64,000 nt of DNA. Origin: Streptomyces sp. MST-110588. GTDB taxonomy: Bacteria > Actinomycetota > Actinomycetes > Streptomycetales > Streptomycetaceae. Shown here piece by piece: positions 30,740 to 38,423 of this stretch. The notes beneath the pieces were generated by a model. That model was not told the DNA's origin and did no database searches. It saw only the letters and a program-made list of their open reading frames with translations. Position 1 is the stretch's first letter. The number at the start of each line of letters is the position of its first letter. Where the stretch lies: contig NZ_CP074380.1 in assembly GCF_022695595.1 (NCBI RefSeq), forward strand, positions 1,364,001-1,428,000, written 5' to 3'. The position numbers were made by a program, and so were the translations under genes.

Positions 30740-30817
30740 CCGATAGGGACGGCGGGCGGGTGGCGTAAGGCTTCCGAAGCGGCGGCACAGGCAGACCAGG
30801 CACATAACGAGAGCCAA

Positions 30818-30854
30818 CGAGAGCCCCGGACGATTTGATCGTCCGGGGCTCTCG
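30818..30854 (+). terminator. Strong terminator after pssA
   Basis: A perfect 17-bp stem with a 3-base loop (left arm 30818-30834, right arm 30838-30854), 79 bases after the pssA stop. Among the longest perfect hairpins in the window. A G/T-rich stretch follows. Confidence 0.88.
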
Positions 30855-31097
30855 GGTGTTGCGGTGGGCTTTGCTGGGTTTGGATCGGCTCGGTTCCGTT
30901 CGGTTTGGTTCTGGGGCGGGCCTGAAGGGAGCTGACGGCCGGGGCGGCGCCTTGGACGACCCAGGAGGCGAGGGCTCGTCGCCGTCGGGCGGGGCCGGTG
31001 GTCGGCCCGGGCAGGGGCTCGGACGGCCCGGGCGAGGACAGACGATCCTGACCAGGCTGGGCGGCCCCGGCAGAAAGACGCCGACCGACCGACCCGG

Positions 31098-31174
31098 CCG
31101 CCCTACAGGGCAAATCGAACGCACCTTTCCCCCCGACTGGGGGTTACCCACAGGCGCGGGGCGAGAACCCTGGG
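31098..31174 (+). repeat. 77-bp dispersed element, copy A
   Basis: Aligns end to end without gaps with copies at 35748-35824 and 35901-35977. Invariant blocks are CCTAC, AAATCGAACGC, CTGGGGGTTACCC and AGAACCCT. A small hairpin with a CCCCC...GGGGG stem sits in the middle. It lies outside any real gene. Function unknown: it may be a structured RNA on either strand, a protein-binding site or a mobile fragment. Confidence 0.8.
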
Positions 31175-31343
31175 CCGGGAGTGAGGCGGGGCGGCGAGCG
31201 GGCGCCCCGCGGGCGTCGGGTGGGGGTGGGGTGGAATGGGGACGGAGCGGTGAACCGGCGCCCCGCGCGGTGAGGTGGGCTTCTCGGGGGCGGCGGGAAG
31301 AGTCGTGCGCCCGGGCCCCATGTGGCTGGTGGCCGGGAGCCGA

Positions 31344-31447
31344 GCTCGTACGGACAGTGGCTGGGGGCGGACGGCCGGGCTTGTACGGAGAGTGGCTGGG
31401 GCGGGCAGCCCGGCTCGTACGGACAGTGGCTGGGGGCGGGCAGCCGG
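31344..31447 (+). repeat. ~35-bp tandem repeat, three units
   Basis: Units at 31344-31378, 31379-31412 and 31413-31447 share GCTCGTACGGACAGTGGCTG and a GC-rich tail with few changes. Non-coding, just after the 3' end of the minus-strand glycerate kinase gene. Confidence 0.8.
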
Positions 31448-31482
31448 CGGCTCCGTACGAGCGCGGGTGCCCGCGCCGGGCG

Positions 31483-32661
31483 TCAGTGGGTCAGGAAGTC
31501 GCGGGCCAGGGACTCCGCCGCGCGTTCCAGGAGGGGCCCCGCCTGGGCCATGCAGCGGGCCGGGTCGGGCTCCAGGTCCGTCAGGGCGTAGGCACGCCGG
31601 ATGCCCGCCCTCTCCAGGGCCTGCGGCGGCAGCGCCAGCCGCCCGCAGACCGCGGCCACCTCCAGCCCGGCGGCGCGGGCGGCGGCGGCCACGCCCGCGG
31701 GCGCCTTGCCGTGCAGCGTCTGCTCGTCCAGCGAGCCCTCGCCGGTGACGACGAGCGTGGCCCGCGCCAGGGCCGGCGCGAAGCTCAGGACCTCCAGCAT
31801 GACCTCGATCCCCGGGCGGAAGGCCGCGTCCAGCCCGACCAGCGCGCCGTACCCGACGCCGCCCGCCGCGCCCGCCCCGGGCGCCATCGCGCACCCGGCG
31901 GCCTTCGGGCCGACCGCGGCCTCCATGACCTCGGCGTAGTGTGCCAGGGCGGTGTCCAGCGCCGCGACGTCCGCCGCGCTCGCGCCCTTTTGCGGCCCGT
32001 AGACCGCCGCCGCGCCCTTCGGCCCGGTCAGCGGGTTGTCGACGTCGCCGGCCAGTACCACGTCCGTACGGGCCAGGCGCGGATCCAGGCCCGAGAGATC
32101 GGCCGTGGCCAGCGCCGCGAGCGGGCCGCCGCCGGGCGCGACCGGCTCGCCGGAAGCGTCCAGGAAGCGGGCCCCCAGCGCGGCGAGCATGCCCGCGCCG
32201 CCGTCGGTCGTGGCGCTGCCGCCGACCCCGAGGACGACCGAGGTGGCGCCCGCGTCCAGGGCGGCGCGCAGCAGTTCCCCGGTCCCGTACGTAGTGGCGG
32301 TCATCGGCGCGAAGACGCCCTCGGGGAGGTGCCGGAGGCCGGATGCCTCGGCCATCTCCACCACGGCTGTCCCCCGGTCCGACAGCGCGAACGTGGCCGT
32401 CACCGGGTCGCCGAGCGGACCGGTGACCTTGGCCCGGTGCCGTACGAAGCCGGCGGCCAGCGCCGCCGCGACCGTACCGTCACCGCCGTCCGCCACCGGA
32501 AGCGCCTCCACCGAAAGGCCCGGGACGACGCGGCGCAGACCGGCCGCGACATGCCCGGCGACCTCGGCGGCCGTGAGGGAGCCCTTGAATTTGTCCGCGG
32601 CGATCAGCACGTGGACGTTATTAGCGCTATTCGTCCGTGCTGTGTCCGCTGCGTCCGCCAT
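31483..32661 (-). CDS. Glycerate kinase (GlxK/GarK type)
   Basis: 392 residues of the type-1 glycerate kinase family. Seen: the start IAADKFKGSLTAAEVA, VADGGDGTV, GVGGSATTDGGAGMLAALG, and VVTGEGSLDEQTLHGKAP with the catalytic-region Asp/Glu. Phosphorylates D-glycerate, linking glyoxylate or glycerate use to glycolysis. Start 32661 follows AGGGGA; a longer reading to 32748 is unlikely. The gene stands alone; the first ~15 residues are Ala/Thr-rich. Confidence 0.92.
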   Translation of the reverse strand: MADAADTARTNSANNVHVLIAADKFKGSLTAAEVAGHVAAGLRRVVPGLSVEALPVADGGDGTVAAALAAGFVRHRAKVTGPLGDPVTATFALSDRGTAVVEMAEASGLRHLPEGVFAPMTATTYGTGELLRAALDAGATSVVLGVGGSATTDGGAGMLAALGARFLDASGEPVAPGGGPLAALATADLSGLDPRLARTDVVLAGDVDNPLTGPKGAAAVYGPQKGASAADVAALDTALAHYAEVMEAAVGPKAAGCAMAPGAGAAGGVGYGALVGLDAAFRPGIEVMLEVLSFAPALARATLVVTGEGSLDEQTLHGKAPAGVAAAARAAGLEVAAVCGRLALPPQALERAGIRRAYALTDLEPDPARCMAQAGPLLERAAESLARDFLTH

Positions 32662-32840
32662 ATCTTTTTCCCCTTGCTTTCGAAGTGGCAGTCGCGCCGC
32701 TGTGACCTTATCCGGCACGGACCCCGGCGAATAGAGAGCGGTATTCACGAAAAGCGCGACGGTCGGCCGTCAGGGGATGCGAACGGTCATGGCGGGGCCT
32801 TGGGCGTGCCGCTTTCCCCTCCGGGCCCGGCCGTACGACC

Positions 32841-33060
32841 ATGGGCCACGCCACGTACATCGCCGTGCTGCCGCGCGTGCTCGCGGGCGCCGGTGTCGTC
32901 TTCCGTGGGCCGAGGAGCGCGTCCTGCTGGTCGAGTCCCACTGCCGCGGCTTACCGCGACACCTGGTTCCTGCCGGGCGGAACGGTCGGGTCCGTCACGC
33001 GGGCTCCCCGGATGGCGCTCCTGACGTTGTCCGCCTGTTGTCGCGAGGGCCGGCACTTGA
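32841..33060 (+). pseudogene. Decayed Nudix hydrolase
   Basis: One frame gives MGHATYIAVLPRVLAGAGVV, the next frame gives EERVLLVESHCR, and the first frame resumes with YRDTWFLPGGTVGS. Placed together these read like the N-terminal half of a Streptomyces Nudix protein, but two frame changes are needed and the Nudix box (REx2EE) that should follow is missing. It is a broken remnant next to an IS fragment. Confidence 0.65.
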
Positions 33061-33084
33061 TGGTCGTCACCGGACGCCGCAGTC

Positions 33085-33260
33085 ATGGATGTTCCGCCCG
33101 GCGGTGATCCGAGGGCTGAGCGGCGGGCGTTTCGCGAGCGTATCCGGATGGATGCGGCCGGGATGTTCGCCGCCGGGCAGGTCAACGGCGTGATCACACA
33201 GTATCTGCGGGTCAGCTCCTGCTCGGTGCAGCGGTGGTGCCGGGTTCGGGAAGGCGGCTT
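33085..33260 (+). mobile_element. IS630-type transposase N-terminal fragment
   Basis: The reading MDVPPGGDPRAERRAFRERI, then RMDAAGMFAAGQVNGVI and LRVSSCSVQRWCR, matches the N-terminal helix-turn-helix of IS630-family transposases common in Streptomyces. The DDE catalytic part is absent and the frame soon runs into the 3' end of the TetR gene. A remnant, not an active element; no terminal repeats were found. Confidence 0.65.
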
Positions 33261-33895
33261 GTCGTACCGGTTCCGCGTTTCGCCCCCGGGCGATGCTCTT
33301 CTTGGATGAACAGCCGGTCCAGGTACCGGTCGACAGAGGTGAGGACCTCTTGAGGGTCGAGCACATTCAGTTCGATCAGGGGGGTGAAGCCGGTCAGGGC
33401 GAGAAGCAGGTTGGTCTCGGTCACCGGGTCGCGGTCGGGGCTGATGTGTCCGTCGGCGATGGCCTGGCGGACCAGCCGCTCCACGGCGGCGCGCCCTTGG
33501 AGCATCCCGTCGCGCGCCCGTGCGTGAACGCTCTCGTCGTGCAGCGCCTCCAGGACGTAGGCCGCGCTCATCCGGCTGGTCGCACGGGCGTCGGCATGCA
33601 AAGGGAGCATTTCGGTGAGCATCAGCCGGAGCACGGCGCGGGGGTGCGGCCGGTCGCCGAGTTCTTGGACGCCCCGGCCGACGCGCAGTGCGGTCTGTTC
33701 GGCCGCGAAGTCCATCGCGAAGGTGAGCATCGCCTCGCGGGAGGTGAAGTAGTGCTGCACCGCCCCGTGGGAGAGGCCGGCCTCCTGTGCGACCTCGCGC
33801 ATCGTCAGGTGCACCGCGCCGCGCCGCTCGACCACTCGCCACAGCGCCCGGGCGATCGTCTCGCGGCGTTCGCGGTGGTCCACCTGCTTCGGCAT
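33212..33895 (-). CDS. TetR-family transcriptional regulator
   Basis: 227 residues. Helix-turn-helix LTMREVAQEAGLSHGAVQHYF with the typical TetR recognition helix; ligand domain unremarkable. Divergent from the carboxylesterase gene, 159 bp apart, with a direct repeat in the gap that could be its operator. Most likely a repressor of that esterase. The C-terminal tail past about residue 200 is Thr/Arg/Pro-rich and may have been altered by the adjoining IS630 fragment. Confidence 0.9.
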   Translation of the reverse strand: MPKQVDHRERRETIARALWRVVERRGAVHLTMREVAQEAGLSHGAVQHYFTSREAMLTFAMDFAAEQTALRVGRGVQELGDRPHPRAVLRLMLTEMLPLHADARATSRMSAAYVLEALHDESVHARARDGMLQGRAAVERLVRQAIADGHISPDRDPVTETNLLLALTGFTPLIELNVLDPQEVLTSVDRYLDRLFIQEEHRPGAKRGTGTTSRLPEPGTTAAPSRS

Positions 33896-33949
33896 GGTCG
33901 GCCTCTCTGTGGCTGGTCGTCTCGGTGCCCGCGGTCCGCCCGCGTTCCC

Positions 33950-33983
33950 ATACAGTTGACATAATACAGTTGGCCGATAACGC
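33950..33983 (+). promoter_or_regulatory. Esterase promoter with direct-repeat operator candidate
   Basis: ATACAGTTG occurs twice, at 33950-33958 and 33964-33972, spaced by 14 bp. The first copy overlaps a consensus -35 box TTGACA (33956-33961); a plausible -10 TAACGC follows after 16 bp. A short tandem of GACGACGTG lies downstream (about 34000-34030) in the leader. Confidence 0.55.
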
Positions 33984-34054
33984 TGGGGCCCTTCGACGTG
34001 ACGACCTGACGACGTGACGACGTGACGACCGGCCGACCGGAGAGGGGCAGCACC

Positions 34055-36031
34055 ATGTCTGAGCAGCCAAGAGTGCGTACGACGGAGGGCGTACTGGAGG
34101 GCCGCCGGCGAGGCGGGCACGTGATCTTCCGCGGCATCCCTTATGCCCAGCCGCCCGTGGGCCGGCTCCGGTTCGCCGCACCGGCCCCGCCCCGGCCTTG
34201 GGAGGGGACACGGCAGGCGGCGCAGTTCGGGCCCCTGGGGCCGCAGTCCACGCCGCTGCACGTACCCCCAGCGAAAGGCACCGACTGGCTGACGCTCAAC
34301 GTCTGTACTCCGGACCCGTCAGCGGCGGGGCTGCCGGTGCTGGTGTGGTTTCCCGGCGGCGGCTACATGACGGCAGACTCCAGCGACCCGATGTACGACC
34401 CGACGGCACTGGCCGAAGCCGGACTCGTCGTGATCAGCGTCAACTACCGGGTGGGCGCGGAGGGCTTCGCCCTGCTCGACGGCGCCCCGCCCAACCGCGG
34501 CTTCCTCGACCAGATCGCGGCGCTGCACTGGGTACAGCGCAACATCGCCCGCTTCGGAGGAGACCCTGACCTGGTCACCGTTGCCGGACAGTCCGCCGGG
34601 GCAGGATCGGTCGCCGCCTTGCTGACGATGAAATCGGCGCGCCCCCTGTTCCGCCGGGCCATCACCCACTCGGTGCCGGGCTTCCACTGCAACCCCGCGC
34701 TTGCCCAACAGGTCGCCGCCGCGCTCGCGGACCGGCTCGGCACCGCGCCCACCGCCGCGGCCCTCAGCGACATCGCCCCGCAACGCCTGGCCGACGAGGT
34801 CACCTCCCTGGGCGCCGACCTCCCCCGCTACCAGCAGAGCTGGGGGCGGCTCGCCCACGTCGGTATCGCCGTGTGCCCCGTGGTCGACGGCGAAGTCCTG
34901 CGCGAAACGCCCTGGACCGCATTGTCCGGTGGCCGTGCGAGCGGCATCGAACTCCTCGCCGGCCATACCCGCGATGAGTTCCGGCTGTTCAGCGTCATGA
35001 CCGGACGGCTGGGCACGTTCACCGACGAGGACGCCCGCACCGCCTTGGACCTGCTCGCCCCGGCACCGGGCGGCCCGGACGCCTACCGTGCCGCCCACCC
35101 GCGCGCCACCCCGGAAGAACTACTGGAAACAGTGTTCTCCGATGCCACCTTCCGGATGCCGTCGCTGCTGCTGGCCGAGGCGAACGCGGCAGCCGGCGGC
35201 AGCTCGTACCTGTTCGAGCTGGGTCTCGCCTCCCCGGCACTGGGAGGCAACCTGGGTGCCTGCCACAGCCTCGACGTGCCCCTGGCGTTCGGCACGATGG
35301 ACAGCCCTACCGGCAAGCAGCTCCTCGGTGACCAGCCGACCCCCGAGGCCGTCGCGGTATCCCAAGAACTCCGGCAGGCGTGGGTCCGGTTCGTCGCCAC
35401 CGGTGACCCCGGATGGCCCGCTTACCACCCTGACCAGCAGCTCACCCGCATCCTGGCCGCCGAATCGCAAACCGTTCCCTACCCCGAGCACACCTCGCGC
35501 CGGATCTGGGCGGGCCATCCCCCGCTCCCTTCGACCTCACCACGGGAAGCTGACCGACGCCAACACGCCTGCCGGTCGGCTACTGACGTTGTCGGTGCGT
35601 TGTTTTGTATGAGGCAGTCCGGTTGCAGCGAGGCAACTGTCGATGACGTCGCTGCGGTACTGAAGCTGGCGCAGACCGCGACGAGGGCATGCATGAGGTC
35701 GTCGGGGTCGTGTGGGAGGGCCGGGCCGGGTTGGAGGGGCCAACCGGGGCGCCTACGGGGCAAATCGAACGCGCGCTTACCCCCGACTGGGGGTTACCCG
35801 GCGGGGCGGGAGGAGAACCCTCGGGCGGCGCAGGGCGGGGCGGGCGGCATAGGGCGGGGTAGGGGGCGAGCGGGGGATGGGGGTGGGCGGGGGCTACCTG
35901 GGCACCTACGGGGTAAATCGAACGCACGTGTCCCCCTGGCTGGGGGTTACCCAAAGGGGCAGGGAAAGAACCCTGAGTGGGGCGGAGACGAGCGGCCTGG
36001 GGTAGGGCCGAGCGGTCAGGGGCGGAGTTGA
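34055..36031 (+). CDS. Type-B carboxylesterase with probable frameshift at its 3' end
   Basis: A carboxylesterase/lipase domain fills the first ~490 residues: Ser180 in GQSAGAGS, acidic partner in GHTRDEFRLF, His in LGACHSLDVPLAFG, plus NYRVGAEGFALL. Hydrolyses carboxylic esters; no signal peptide. After WAGHPPLP (about 35520) the frame runs on for ~165 residues of low complexity through two copies of the 77-bp element. One base away another frame gives a natural-looking end, FDLTTGS-stop at 35555, so a single-base change near 35520-35530 (real or a sequence error) probably removed the true stop. Start 34055 follows GGAGAGGGG. Confidence 0.8.
   Translation: MSEQPRVRTTEGVLEGRRRGGHVIFRGIPYAQPPVGRLRFAAPAPPRPWEGTRQAAQFGPLGPQSTPLHVPPAKGTDWLTLNVCTPDPSAAGLPVLVWFPGGGYMTADSSDPMYDPTALAEAGLVVISVNYRVGAEGFALLDGAPPNRGFLDQIAALHWVQRNIARFGGDPDLVTVAGQSAGAGSVAALLTMKSARPLFRRAITHSVPGFHCNPALAQQVAAALADRLGTAPTAAALSDIAPQRLADEVTSLGADLPRYQQSWGRLAHVGIAVCPVVDGEVLRETPWTALSGGRASGIELLAGHTRDEFRLFSVMTGRLGTFTDEDARTALDLLAPAPGGPDAYRAAHPRATPEELLETVFSDATFRMPSLLLAEANAAAGGSSYLFELGLASPALGGNLGACHSLDVPLAFGTMDSPTGKQLLGDQPTPEAVAVSQELRQAWVRFVATGDPGWPAYHPDQQLTRILAAESQTVPYPEHTSRRIWAGHPPLPSTSPREADRRQHACRSATDVVGALFCMRQSGCSEATVDDVAAVLKLAQTATRACMRSSGSCGRAGPGWRGQPGRLRGKSNARLPPTGGYPAGREENPRAAQGGAGGIGRGRGRAGDGGGRGLPGHLRGKSNARVPLAGGYPKGQGKNPEWGGDERPGVGPSGQGRS
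35748..35824 (+). repeat. 77-bp dispersed element, copy B
   Basis: Same orientation as copy A, ungapped alignment. Lies in the probably out-of-frame tail of the esterase reading frame, starting 153 bp before copy C. Confidence 0.8.
35901..35977 (+). repeat. 77-bp dispersed element, copy C
   Basis: Third copy. The loop side of the central hairpin changes (GACT to TGGCT) while the C-run/G-run arms stay paired, and the block GGGGT could pair with ACCCT at the far end. Confidence 0.8.
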
Positions 36032-36311
36032 GCGGCACGCGGCGCCCGGGGAGGGGAGCTGAGGCGCCCCGGGGGGAGCTGAGTCGCCAGGGGCGCCCCC
36101 GGTAGAGCCGAGCGGTCTGGGGTGCGGGCGAGCGGCGCAGGGCGCCCGGGGTGGTACGGAGGCTGGAGTGAAGCGGGGTGTACGGGCGCATGTGGGGTGA
36201 GGTGTACGGGCGTATGTGGGGCGGGGTGTACGGGCGTATGTGGGTGGGTGTGCTGGGTGTATGGGGCGTGCCGGGGTGGGCAGGGGGCTGGGGTGTGCGT
36301 GTCTTTGGTGG
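36032..36311. other. Repeat-rich gap before ogt
   Basis: About 280 bases of G-rich low-complexity DNA, with degenerate GAGCGG/GGCGCCC phrases (36040-36150) and then the 24-bp tandem repeat listed separately. No gene is supported. Confidence 0.5.
36177..36248 (+). repeat. 24-bp tandem repeat, three units
   Basis: Units at 36177-36200, 36201-36224 and 36225-36248 each begin GGTGTACGGGCG and continue (C/T)ATGTGGG with small changes at the end. Non-coding, just 3' of ogt. Confidence 0.85.
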
Positions 36312-36944
36312 TCACCAGATCGGTTGTTGGGTGCCGGACCGTTCGAAGTCCAGCAGGAGGCGCTTGCGGGCCAGCCCGCCCCCGTACCCCGTGAGGCTGC
36401 CCGTCGAGCCGACGACGCGGTGGCAGGGGACGACGATGCCCAGCGGGTTCTTGCCGTTGGCCAGGCCCACCGCGCGGGACGCCGTCGGGCTGCCGATGCG
36501 GTCGGCGAGTTGTCCGTAGGAGATGGTCTCGCCGTACGGGATGTCGCGCAGGGCCGTCCAGACGCGCTGCTGGAAGGGCGTGCCGTGGAAGGTCAGCGGG
36601 AGGTCGAAGACGGTCAGCTCGCCGTCGAAGTAGGCGCGGAGCTGGCGGATGGCGGCGGCGAAGGGGGCGGCCCGGGGGTCTTCCGGGTGGCCGAAGGTCT
36701 CCTGCGGCGGGCGGTGGCGCTGGTCGGTCATGTAGACGCCGCTGAGGGCCTCGCCCCGGGCCACGAGGGTCAGGGCGCCGACCGGGGTGTCGTTCATGAG
36801 GGTGTGCACGACAGGCTCGGGGCGGGTCACGGATGTGGGGTGGGTCTCGGGCCTGGGGTGGGCCACGGGCCTGGGCTGGGTGGCGGGCTTCGGGTGAGTT
36901 ACTGAGGGGATCGAGGGTGGTGTGACAGGTGTCGAGGGTGGCAT
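36312..36944 (-). CDS. ogt: Methylated-DNA-protein cysteine methyltransferase
   Basis: 210 residues. Removes alkyl groups from O6 of guanine in DNA by suicide transfer. The active-site motif PCHRVVG, the upstream FQQRVWTALRDIPYGET and the helix-turn-helix Arg region SRAVGLANGKNPL are intact. The first ~45 residues are an unusual Pro/Thr/His-rich repeat (HPKPATQPRPVAHPRP and similar); the core begins at MNDTPVG. ATG at 36944 follows GAGG and lies 8 bp after the AlkA stop, so the two repair genes form an operon. Confidence 0.92.
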   Translation of the reverse strand: MPPSTPVTPPSIPSVTHPKPATQPRPVAHPRPETHPTSVTRPEPVVHTLMNDTPVGALTLVARGEALSGVYMTDQRHRPPQETFGHPEDPRAAPFAAAIRQLRAYFDGELTVFDLPLTFHGTPFQQRVWTALRDIPYGETISYGQLADRIGSPTASRAVGLANGKNPLGIVVPCHRVVGSTGSLTGYGGGLARKRLLLDFERSGTQQPIW

Positions 36945-36951
36945 GGGGGCC

Positions 36952-38423
36952 TCAGTTCGTGGGGAGGTGGTTGATGGGGTGGTCGTCGGTGGCCCAGAGG
37001 TACTGCACGGCGTACGCGCGCCAGGGACTCCAGCGCGCGGAGTGGCGTACGAGCGCCGCGGGCGTGGCGGGCAGTCCCAGACCGGCGGCGGCCCGGCGCA
37101 GGCCGAGGTCGGTGGCGGTGAAGGCGTCCGGGTCGCCGAGGGCGCGCATGGCGATGCACTCGACGGTCCAGGGGCCGACGCCGGGCAGTGCGGCGAGCTG
37201 TGCGCGGGCCCGCTCGCGGTCGCTGCCGACGCCGAGTTGGAGCTGTCCCCGGCGAGGGCGGCGATCAGTCCGGTGAGCGTGGCGCGACGGGTGCGCGGCA
37301 TCGCCAGGGTCTGCGGGTCCAGTTCCGCCAGCGCGGCGGGTGGCGGGAAGAGGTGGGTGAGGCCGCCCTCGGGGTCCTCGATCCGCTGTCCGTGGGCGGT
37401 GACCAGGCGTCCGGCGTGGGTACGGGCCGCGGCGGTGGAGACCTGCTGTCCCAGTACGGCCCGTACGGCGAACTCCTCCGCGTCGACGGTCCGCGGAACC
37501 CGGCGGCCGGGGGCCTTGGCGACGAGCGGGGCCAGCAGCGGGTCGTCCGCGAGCAAGGCGTCGACGGCTTCAGGGTCGGCGTCCAGGTCCAGCAGGGCGC
37601 GGCAGCGGGCGATGGCGCCCGCCAGATCGCGCAGGTCGGTCAGGGAGAGCCGGCACAGGACGTGGTCGGGGCGCGGGGCCAGGGCGACGATGCCGGGACC
37701 GTAGGGGAGGTCGAGCGTGCGGCGGTAGGCGCCGTCGCGCCACTCCTCCACGCCGGGCACCGCCGTGGCGGCGAGGTGCCCGAAGAGGTTGTCGGGGCAC
37801 AGCGGCTGCCGGAAGGGCAGCCGGAGGGTGAGAACGCCGGGATGCCCGGCACCGGGCGCGGGGCGGGCGCGTTCGCGCAGTTGGGTGGGGGTGAGGGCGA
37901 AGACCTCGCGTACGGTCTCGTTGAAGGCCCGGATGCTGGCGAACCCGGCCGCGAACGCCACCTCCGCCATGGGCAGGCCGCTGGTCTCGATCAGCAGCCG
38001 GGCGGTCTGGGCGCGTTGGGCGCGGGCCAGCGCCAGTGGTCCGGCGCCGAGTTCGGCGAGCAACTGGCGTTCGACCTGGCGGGTGCTGTAGCCGAGCCTG
38101 GCTGCCAGGCCCGGCACGCCCTCGCGGTCGACGACGCCGTCACCGATCAGCCGCATGGCGCGGGCGACGAGGTCGGCCCGTTCGTTCCACCGGGGCGAGC
38201 CGGGCGCCGCGTCGGGCCGGCACCGTTTGCACGCCCGGAAGCCCGCCTGCTGCGCGGCGGCGGCGCTCGGGTAGAAGGACATGTTCTCGGGCTTGGGCGG
38301 CACGACCGGGCAGCTCGGGCGGCAGTAGATGCGGGTGGTGAGCACGGCGGTGAAGAACCACCCGTCGAAGCGGGCGTCCTTGGACTGCACGGCACGTATG
38401 CAGCGCTCGGTTTCGGTGTGCAT
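36952..38423 (-). pseudogene. Ada-AlkA DNA repair protein with a single-base frameshift
   Basis: N-terminal Ada-type zinc domain (Cys residues in RIYCRPSCP and ACKRCRP), an AraC helix-turn-helix (about 85-190), then the AlkA glycosylase domain. The frame is lost at a run of four G on the coding strand (37247-37250). Adding one G restores AGGQLQLGVGSDRER and continues into the HhH-GPD motif LPGVGPWTVECIA, the catalytic-Asp region FTATDLGLRR and the natural stop at 36952. Without it the frame reads through ~100 nonsense residues into ogt. Either a homopolymer sequence error or a true knockout. The role would be removal of 3-methyladenine and induction of the adaptive response. Confidence 0.85.

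Follow-up and report, generated by a model that had tools for sequence, protein, structure and literature searches.

What is the short sequence that occurs three times between genes in the window analysed here, that is, a 64,000-nucleotide stretch of the Streptomyces sp. MST-110588 genome (contig NZ_CP074380.1, positions 1,364,001 to 1,428,000)? An earlier note on this DNA had described it as an unexplained 77-bp element and proposed that it is an RNA under selection, a site bound by a protein or a short element that spread recently. We consider it rather probable that it is a non-autonomous DNA element of about 72 bp, dispersed and restricted to one clade, for the most part intergenic, with its founder site between an M50-peptidase gene and trmI, a core recognised by a protein and a mode of copying that acts in trans.

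A repeat family in the window and in its genome

The three ungapped copies were recovered by the repeat search as one family, D1, at window positions 31078-31171, 35728-35821 and 35881-35974, with spacings of 4650 and 153 bp. Copies 1 and 3 showed 72% and 79% identity to the middle copy, and the blocks AAATCGAACGC, CTGGGGGTTACCC and AGAACCCT were common to all of them. Copy 1 lies in the spacer between the gene of a CDP-alcohol phosphatidyltransferase (called pssA here) and that of glycerate kinase, and copies 2 and 3 lie between a carboxylesterase gene and an Ada/AlkA gene, both being convergent pairs; Pfam bore out these gene names (five window genes). Repeat search, common blocks and gene map thus confirmed that the copies are real, same-facing and intergenic, as the earlier note had stated.

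A sequence-only model, R1, was made from 17 copies of the window's own genome (G000, 7.9 Mb in one contig). On the plus strand it matched copy 1 at 31101..31175 (76.2 bits, E 1.1e-20), copy 2 at 35749..35825 (74.5 bits) and copy 3, 153 bp after copy 2, at 35902..35977 (69.1 bits). The TCGAAC and TACCC motifs of copy 1 are located at 31115-31120 and 31145-31149; the exact pattern matched this copy at G000 position 1395112 and the other two at window positions 35762-35799 and 35915-35952. The profile search of Streptomyces genomes proposed by the earlier note did find further copies, which brings the total in G000 to 21, scoring 39-76 bits, the next match having 14 bits. Blast of one copy against this genome gave 20 places, and the exact two-block pattern gave 4, its reversed control 0. 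Considering the sharp drop in the R1 scores and the empty control, the three window copies are not chance matches.

The 21 copies of G000 occupy 11 spacers, singly or in groups of two to four, and within every cluster all copies face one way. The spacers at 348 kb and 1.293 Mb are flanked by different genes and have in common, at 82% identity, a 287-bp block that consists of two elements plus their intervening DNA; copying can thus take in more than one element at a time. The M50-trmI spacer of G000 holds two copies with 88.6% identity over 114 bp, a length that includes the element and part of its flank. When the elements were masked, only short pieces matched between the element spacers of this genome. 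It was also possible to see that the region at 1.400-5.497 Mb, which surrounds dnaA (3.884 Mb) and makes up the central 52% of the chromosome, is free of copies; the chance of so large a gap with 11 random sites was about 0.004 in a post hoc test, and 9 of the 11 sites point towards dnaA (p 0.065).

Distribution, probable founder site and empty sites

Over 392 Streptomyces genomes, R1 gave matches at E<=0.01 in 23 and strong ones (E<1e-7) in just 10, G000 included, contrary to the earlier suggestion that the element may be common in Streptomyces. The nine other genomes with strong matches are all among the 19 closest to G000 in a ranking based on the pssA region. A second model, R2, built from 59 copies (63 matches minus four partial ones of 13-15 bits), was applied to G000 together with its 30 nearest genomes in the same ranking, and it divided them into 10 carriers and 21 genomes without a match at E<=0.01. 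Six carriers are expanded, with 21 matches in G000, 12 in G279, 10 each in G353 and G102, 9 in G064 and 8 in G052 (partial ones included), and the remaining four, G382, G207, G191 and G106, have exactly one copy each. The exact pattern was also sought in 84,980 species genomes, a set that may omit records of or near the window's genome, and all of the 30 stretches found belonged to Streptomyces, namely S. monomycini, S. rimosus, S. violens, S. niger, S. ochraceiscleroticus, S. piniterrae and two further strains. A stricter pattern carrying the window's own CTGGGGGTTACCC block had 0 matches in these 84,980 genomes, being too strict. The family is confined to S. rimosus and relatives and has multiplied in one branch. 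We found no description of such an element in the open-access literature searched, nor is there one in the passages of PMC9045324 examined.

A second subtype was observed in the same clade, in which CTAC-TGG-(T/C)GCAG-CCCCRCA or variants of it replace the TCGAAC part and are followed by the same C5/G5 repeat and TTACCC-AGGGG. It is present at loci L310, L312 and L314-L318 (G102, G279) and L307, L308, L311 and L313 (G064, G052); its own model had its strongest matches in G102, G279, G052 and G064, and the best one outside the clade was weak (G170, E 4e-5). Matches limited to the 3′ part had been considered as 5′-truncated copies, a sign of reverse transcription, and this was discarded, since most of them are the second subtype with another 5′ part.

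The single copies of G382, G207, G191 and G106 are orthologous. They lie between the M50-peptidase gene and trmI, antisense to their neighbours and near the proteasome ATPase and Pup-ligase genes, and five of the multi-copy genomes are occupied at this site as well. The M50-trmI spacer measures 45-173 bp where the element is absent (15 genomes) and 135-609 bp where it is present (the nine carriers with a readable spacer). A tree of the trmI, M50 and glycerate kinase sequences of 24 genomes was rooted at its midpoint, leaving out G064, where the region meets a contig edge. All the expanded genomes included form one clade; its sister clade is composed of 13 others, the four single-copy carriers among them, and six element-free genomes fall outside both. 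The element probably originated at M50-trmI, with later spread in the clade of the window and losses elsewhere.

Of 46 sites, those other than M50-trmI are either private or common only within {G052, G064, G353} or {G102, G279}; one further site grouping with G353 rests on a single gene match of 67-70%. None of the other ten element spacers of G000 has neighbours matching an element site of another genome. Relatives offer empty counterparts of these sites. The pssA-glycerate kinase spacer, 743 bp in G000 (window 30740..31482), has 92-282 bp in 19 relatives, without an element match there, although in G106 it contains the string GTGGGGCTTACCC, unreported by the models; the rpiB-nei spacer has 30-160 bp in nine relatives versus 403 bp. 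Because the empty sites are far shorter, the DNA gained at these sites is about 0.2-0.6 kb and not 77 bp alone. Lineage-specific sites, empty sites in relatives and one probable founder site support the recently spread short element among the earlier proposals.

A conserved core and its possible recognition

The aligned copies have the core cTAC-n-GGGC-RAATCGAAC-N9-CCCCC-n3to5-GGGGG-nTACCC. TCGAAC is invariant in the 59 copies; 51 of them have 24 bases between this motif and TACCC, the rest 22-25. The loop between the C-run and the G-run has 3 to 5 bases in 55 of the 59 copies, namely 3 in 22, 4 in 28 and 5 in 5. Regarding the 77-bp length given earlier, the copies are indeed ungapped, but the conserved part covers about 72 bp, with a core of 42 bp and a weak final stretch of about 20 bp. 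For copies at orthologous sites, compared in 28 pairs, identity was 77% in the 42-bp core and 49% and 46% in the flanks, against a baseline of 44% for unrelated flanks; each identity, whether of core or of flank, is the highest value within small shifts, and the second M50-trmI copy of G000 and the second copies of two other clusters were omitted. One pair, L120/L127, has 98% identity in its upstream flank, counter to a clean contrast between core and flank. Among the single-copy genomes the core reached 71% versus 46 and 46% for the flanks, and here copying from other copies is no explanation, since each genome has only one. These comparisons support selection on the short core at orthologous sites. 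Fixed spacing of the blocks and a variable loop suggest recognition of spaced blocks in duplex DNA, not of a fixed hairpin.

Taking into account the C5/G5 repeat, a small structured RNA or a transcription terminator that has spread, with its hairpin acting in the transcript, has to be considered, and we judge it unlikely. The C-run and the G-run remain paired in 93.9% of cells and both window spacers are flanked by convergent genes, as such a function would have it. But the stem pairs are almost invariant, with one change on both sides, and 85 of 500 shuffles were as good. Folding of the 59 copies against dinucleotide shuffles gave mean z values of -0.25 and -0.08 on the two strands, that is, no extra stability. 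An outer stem looked convincing by eye and was rejected by permutation, as pairing with the copy's own partner was no better than with those of other copies (2577 of 5000 permutations). Covariation supported neither the hairpin nor an outer GGG/CCC helix. Rfam had 0 matches at the gathering threshold in the window, and five loci searched at E<=1 returned one unrelated match (E 0.42). Among 52 classified copies, 25 have both genes opposite, 15 both in the same direction, 8 lie between converging and 4 between diverging genes; two window copies are misclassified in this count and pass from the first class to the converging one once the carboxylesterase gene beside them is added. The inverted repeat that follows pssA (30818..30854, an opposite-strand self match), a putative terminator, is still intact upstream of copy 1, and a similar one can be seen by eye in the short pssA-glycerate kinase spacers of relatives. 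The hairpin with a changing loop pointed out earlier is present as a pattern, but since its stem hardly varies, the change in the loop does not speak for an RNA hairpin under selection; of the selection then proposed, the part that stands concerns the short core, and covariation, folding and Rfam gave no support to a selected RNA. A stem that never varies would be compatible with an RNA in the tests that we ran.

Fixed block spacing and conservation at orthologous places resemble protein recognition, and they would also be expected of an ordinary operator of a clade-specific regulator, multiplied together with its spacer. We regard this as very improbable. Pfam of 20 genes at or near eight G000 loci and of the five window genes showed no evident common function, and a regulon of that kind was rejected: the neighbours include an SBF transporter, a molybdopterin oxidoreductase, trmI, the M50 peptidase, Asp23, BrkB, rpiB, a nei-type glycosylase, a PLP enzyme, dnaG, whiA, an amidohydrolase, a luciferase-like protein, a protease, glycerate kinase, the carboxylesterase and Ada/AlkA. 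Distances from element to gene range between a few bases and considerably more than a thousand, and the founder site is empty in many relatives. The LexA/SOS box of actinobacteria is TCGAAC-N4-GTTCGA. The element carries the invariant TCGAAC half-site only, GTTCGA at four bases not being seen in the 59 aligned copies. A G-rich skew of the flanks on the element strand was also considered and discarded as inconsistent, positive values being obtained for 31 of 49 stretches upstream and for 20 of 47 downstream.

We thus return to the dispersed element with a protein-recognised core. The copies would most likely descend from one located in the M50-trmI spacer of the common ancestor of the two sister clades. 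Within the clade of the window, which comprises S. rimosus and relatives, the element would have been copied to other spacers, at least once as a two-element block; in the sister clade it would have stayed single, or it is absent. A putative protein would recognise the core as double-stranded DNA, and a putative trans-acting factor, present in the expanding clade, would copy the element. The same-way clusters could have arisen by local tandem duplication or by block copying of spacer DNA that included the element. With one common probable founder site, a burst in one clade, and stasis and absence in its sister, this is a case that can be placed, and a gene common to the six expanded genomes and lacking in the single-copy ones would be a concrete candidate for the mover.

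Several observations weigh against this explanation. The ranges of the M50-trmI spacer overlap, as two carriers have 153 and 135 bp and one genome free of the element has 173 bp, and several nodes of the tree are weak, with support values under 90 and down to 47. A history of one gain and three losses is as costly as one of three gains and one loss; we prefer the former because place and orientation at M50-trmI are identical. In the sister clade, 9 of the 13 genomes lack the element, which makes any selected function dispensable. The DNA gained at the sites greatly exceeds 72 bp, and their flanks are unalignable with the empty sites; for these reasons neither a target-site duplication nor a precise insertion boundary could be read. 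The slow change of the core in multi-copy genomes could reflect recent homogenisation. No binding or moving protein was identified in a search that covered Y1 transposases and no other transposases or recombinases. Finally, an element within a coding linker is unexpected for a pure spacer operator, and this is the situation in G052, G064 and G353, where it is in frame in a fused dipeptide-transporter protein, between its two ABC-ATPase domains (L116 5312, L132 3212 and L142 2984; the frames of two of the three read through). The position outside coding sequence claimed earlier therefore holds in the window and fails in these three species; overall, 4 of the 59 copies overlap called genes, all in other species and according to a home-made codon-score caller.

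Known repeat systems and the growth of spacers

By comparison with described systems, the copies could be decayed ends or relics of a known transposon, a miniature inverted-repeat transposable element (MITE) or a REP/RAYT system. They are dispersed, mostly intergenic and lineage-specific, and on the minus strand GTAG/GTAA precedes a possible hairpin, the GC-rich C5/G5 inverted repeat, as in REP sequences, which also form clusters. Such an origin seems improbable to us. The hairpin has no covariation support, and the Y1 transposase (PF01797; other transposase families were not searched for) turned up in 3 of the 21 genomes searched, all six expanded ones being without it, and REP/RAYT was rejected on this ground. 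The copies of each cluster are all same-facing. MITEs are likewise short, non-autonomous, lineage-specific insertions, but the ends of the element pair no better with each other than with those of different copies, at the level of chance in the permutation, so no terminal inverted repeats were found; no target-site duplication was seen at the empty sites, where the unalignable flanks leave the boundaries unreadable. A blastn search of phages and plasmids with copy 2 (E 0.01) gave no match, and the exact pattern did not occur in viral contigs.

ERIC and BOX are intergenic repeats of enterobacteria and pneumococcus, respectively. They are short, dispersed, mostly intergenic, without coding capacity of their own and patchy among relatives, and no mover is known for repeats of this type. 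The element is best read as ERIC/BOX-like in kind, as judged by description, and its 21 copies in 11 spacers do occupy many non-orthologous intergenic sites, most of them private to a lineage. It differs in its nearly fixed core spacing, its traceable probable founder site and the private duplications of its host spacers.

These spacers are large. The median in G000 was 979 bp with the element (n=11) and 181 bp without it (n=137), a difference with p=3.6e-7 in a one-sided Mann-Whitney test. For this and the following spacer tests two features overlooked by the gene caller were added by hand, namely the carboxylesterase gene (34055-35566) and, in L039, an approximate start of dnaG. With elements masked and only spacers >=250 bp considered, private direct repeats covered on average 25% of the element spacers versus 5% of the others in G000 (11 vs 55, p=5e-6) and 28% versus 3% in the other carriers (20 vs 55, p=2e-6), the element spacers being longer than controls that were unmatched for length or neighbours. 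In controls >=400 bp the coverage was 2% in G000 (26 spacers) and 5% in the others (18), and one-copy element spacers had 16% and 26%, respectively. Private repeats were absent from 2 of the 11 element spacers of G000 and from 8 of the 20 others, including three single-copy spacers of the sister clade. A one-sided, directional arrangement was discarded, as private repeats occur on both sides of the element.

It is possible, and we put it forward tentatively, that the element is active in recombination or replication, provoking repeated local tandem duplication that enlarges and scrambles its own spacer, and that the same activity spreads it; the site would perhaps be nicked or folded at the C5/G5 repeat. 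In favour of this we count the excess of repeat coverage, the copy of the two-element block and locus L137 (5474-5657, G353), where the 3′ half of the element recurs in three additional head-to-tail units at intervals of about 36 bp. The link between element and duplication is correlational, and large, weakly constrained spacers may simply tolerate both. The tie to enlarged, locally duplicated spacers gives a handle on the growth of intergenic DNA in Streptomyces.

Both window spacers are enlarged and hold private repeats. The one of copy 1 contains a tandem-like private family, D2, at 31331..31447 on the plus strand, with three units about 35 bp apart. That of copies 2 and 3 extends over 745 bp (35567..36311), the carboxylesterase gene set by hand at its border being confirmed by Pfam, and holds families D4 and D5 at 36001..36244 on the plus strand, with units about 100 bp and 24 bp apart. 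Next to it, window 36312-38423 is a single frame of 703 residues with Ada metal-binding, HTH_18, AlkA N-terminal and 6-O-methylguanine methyltransferase domains and a low-complexity stretch in its middle, which corresponds either to a fusion or to a frameshifted gene.

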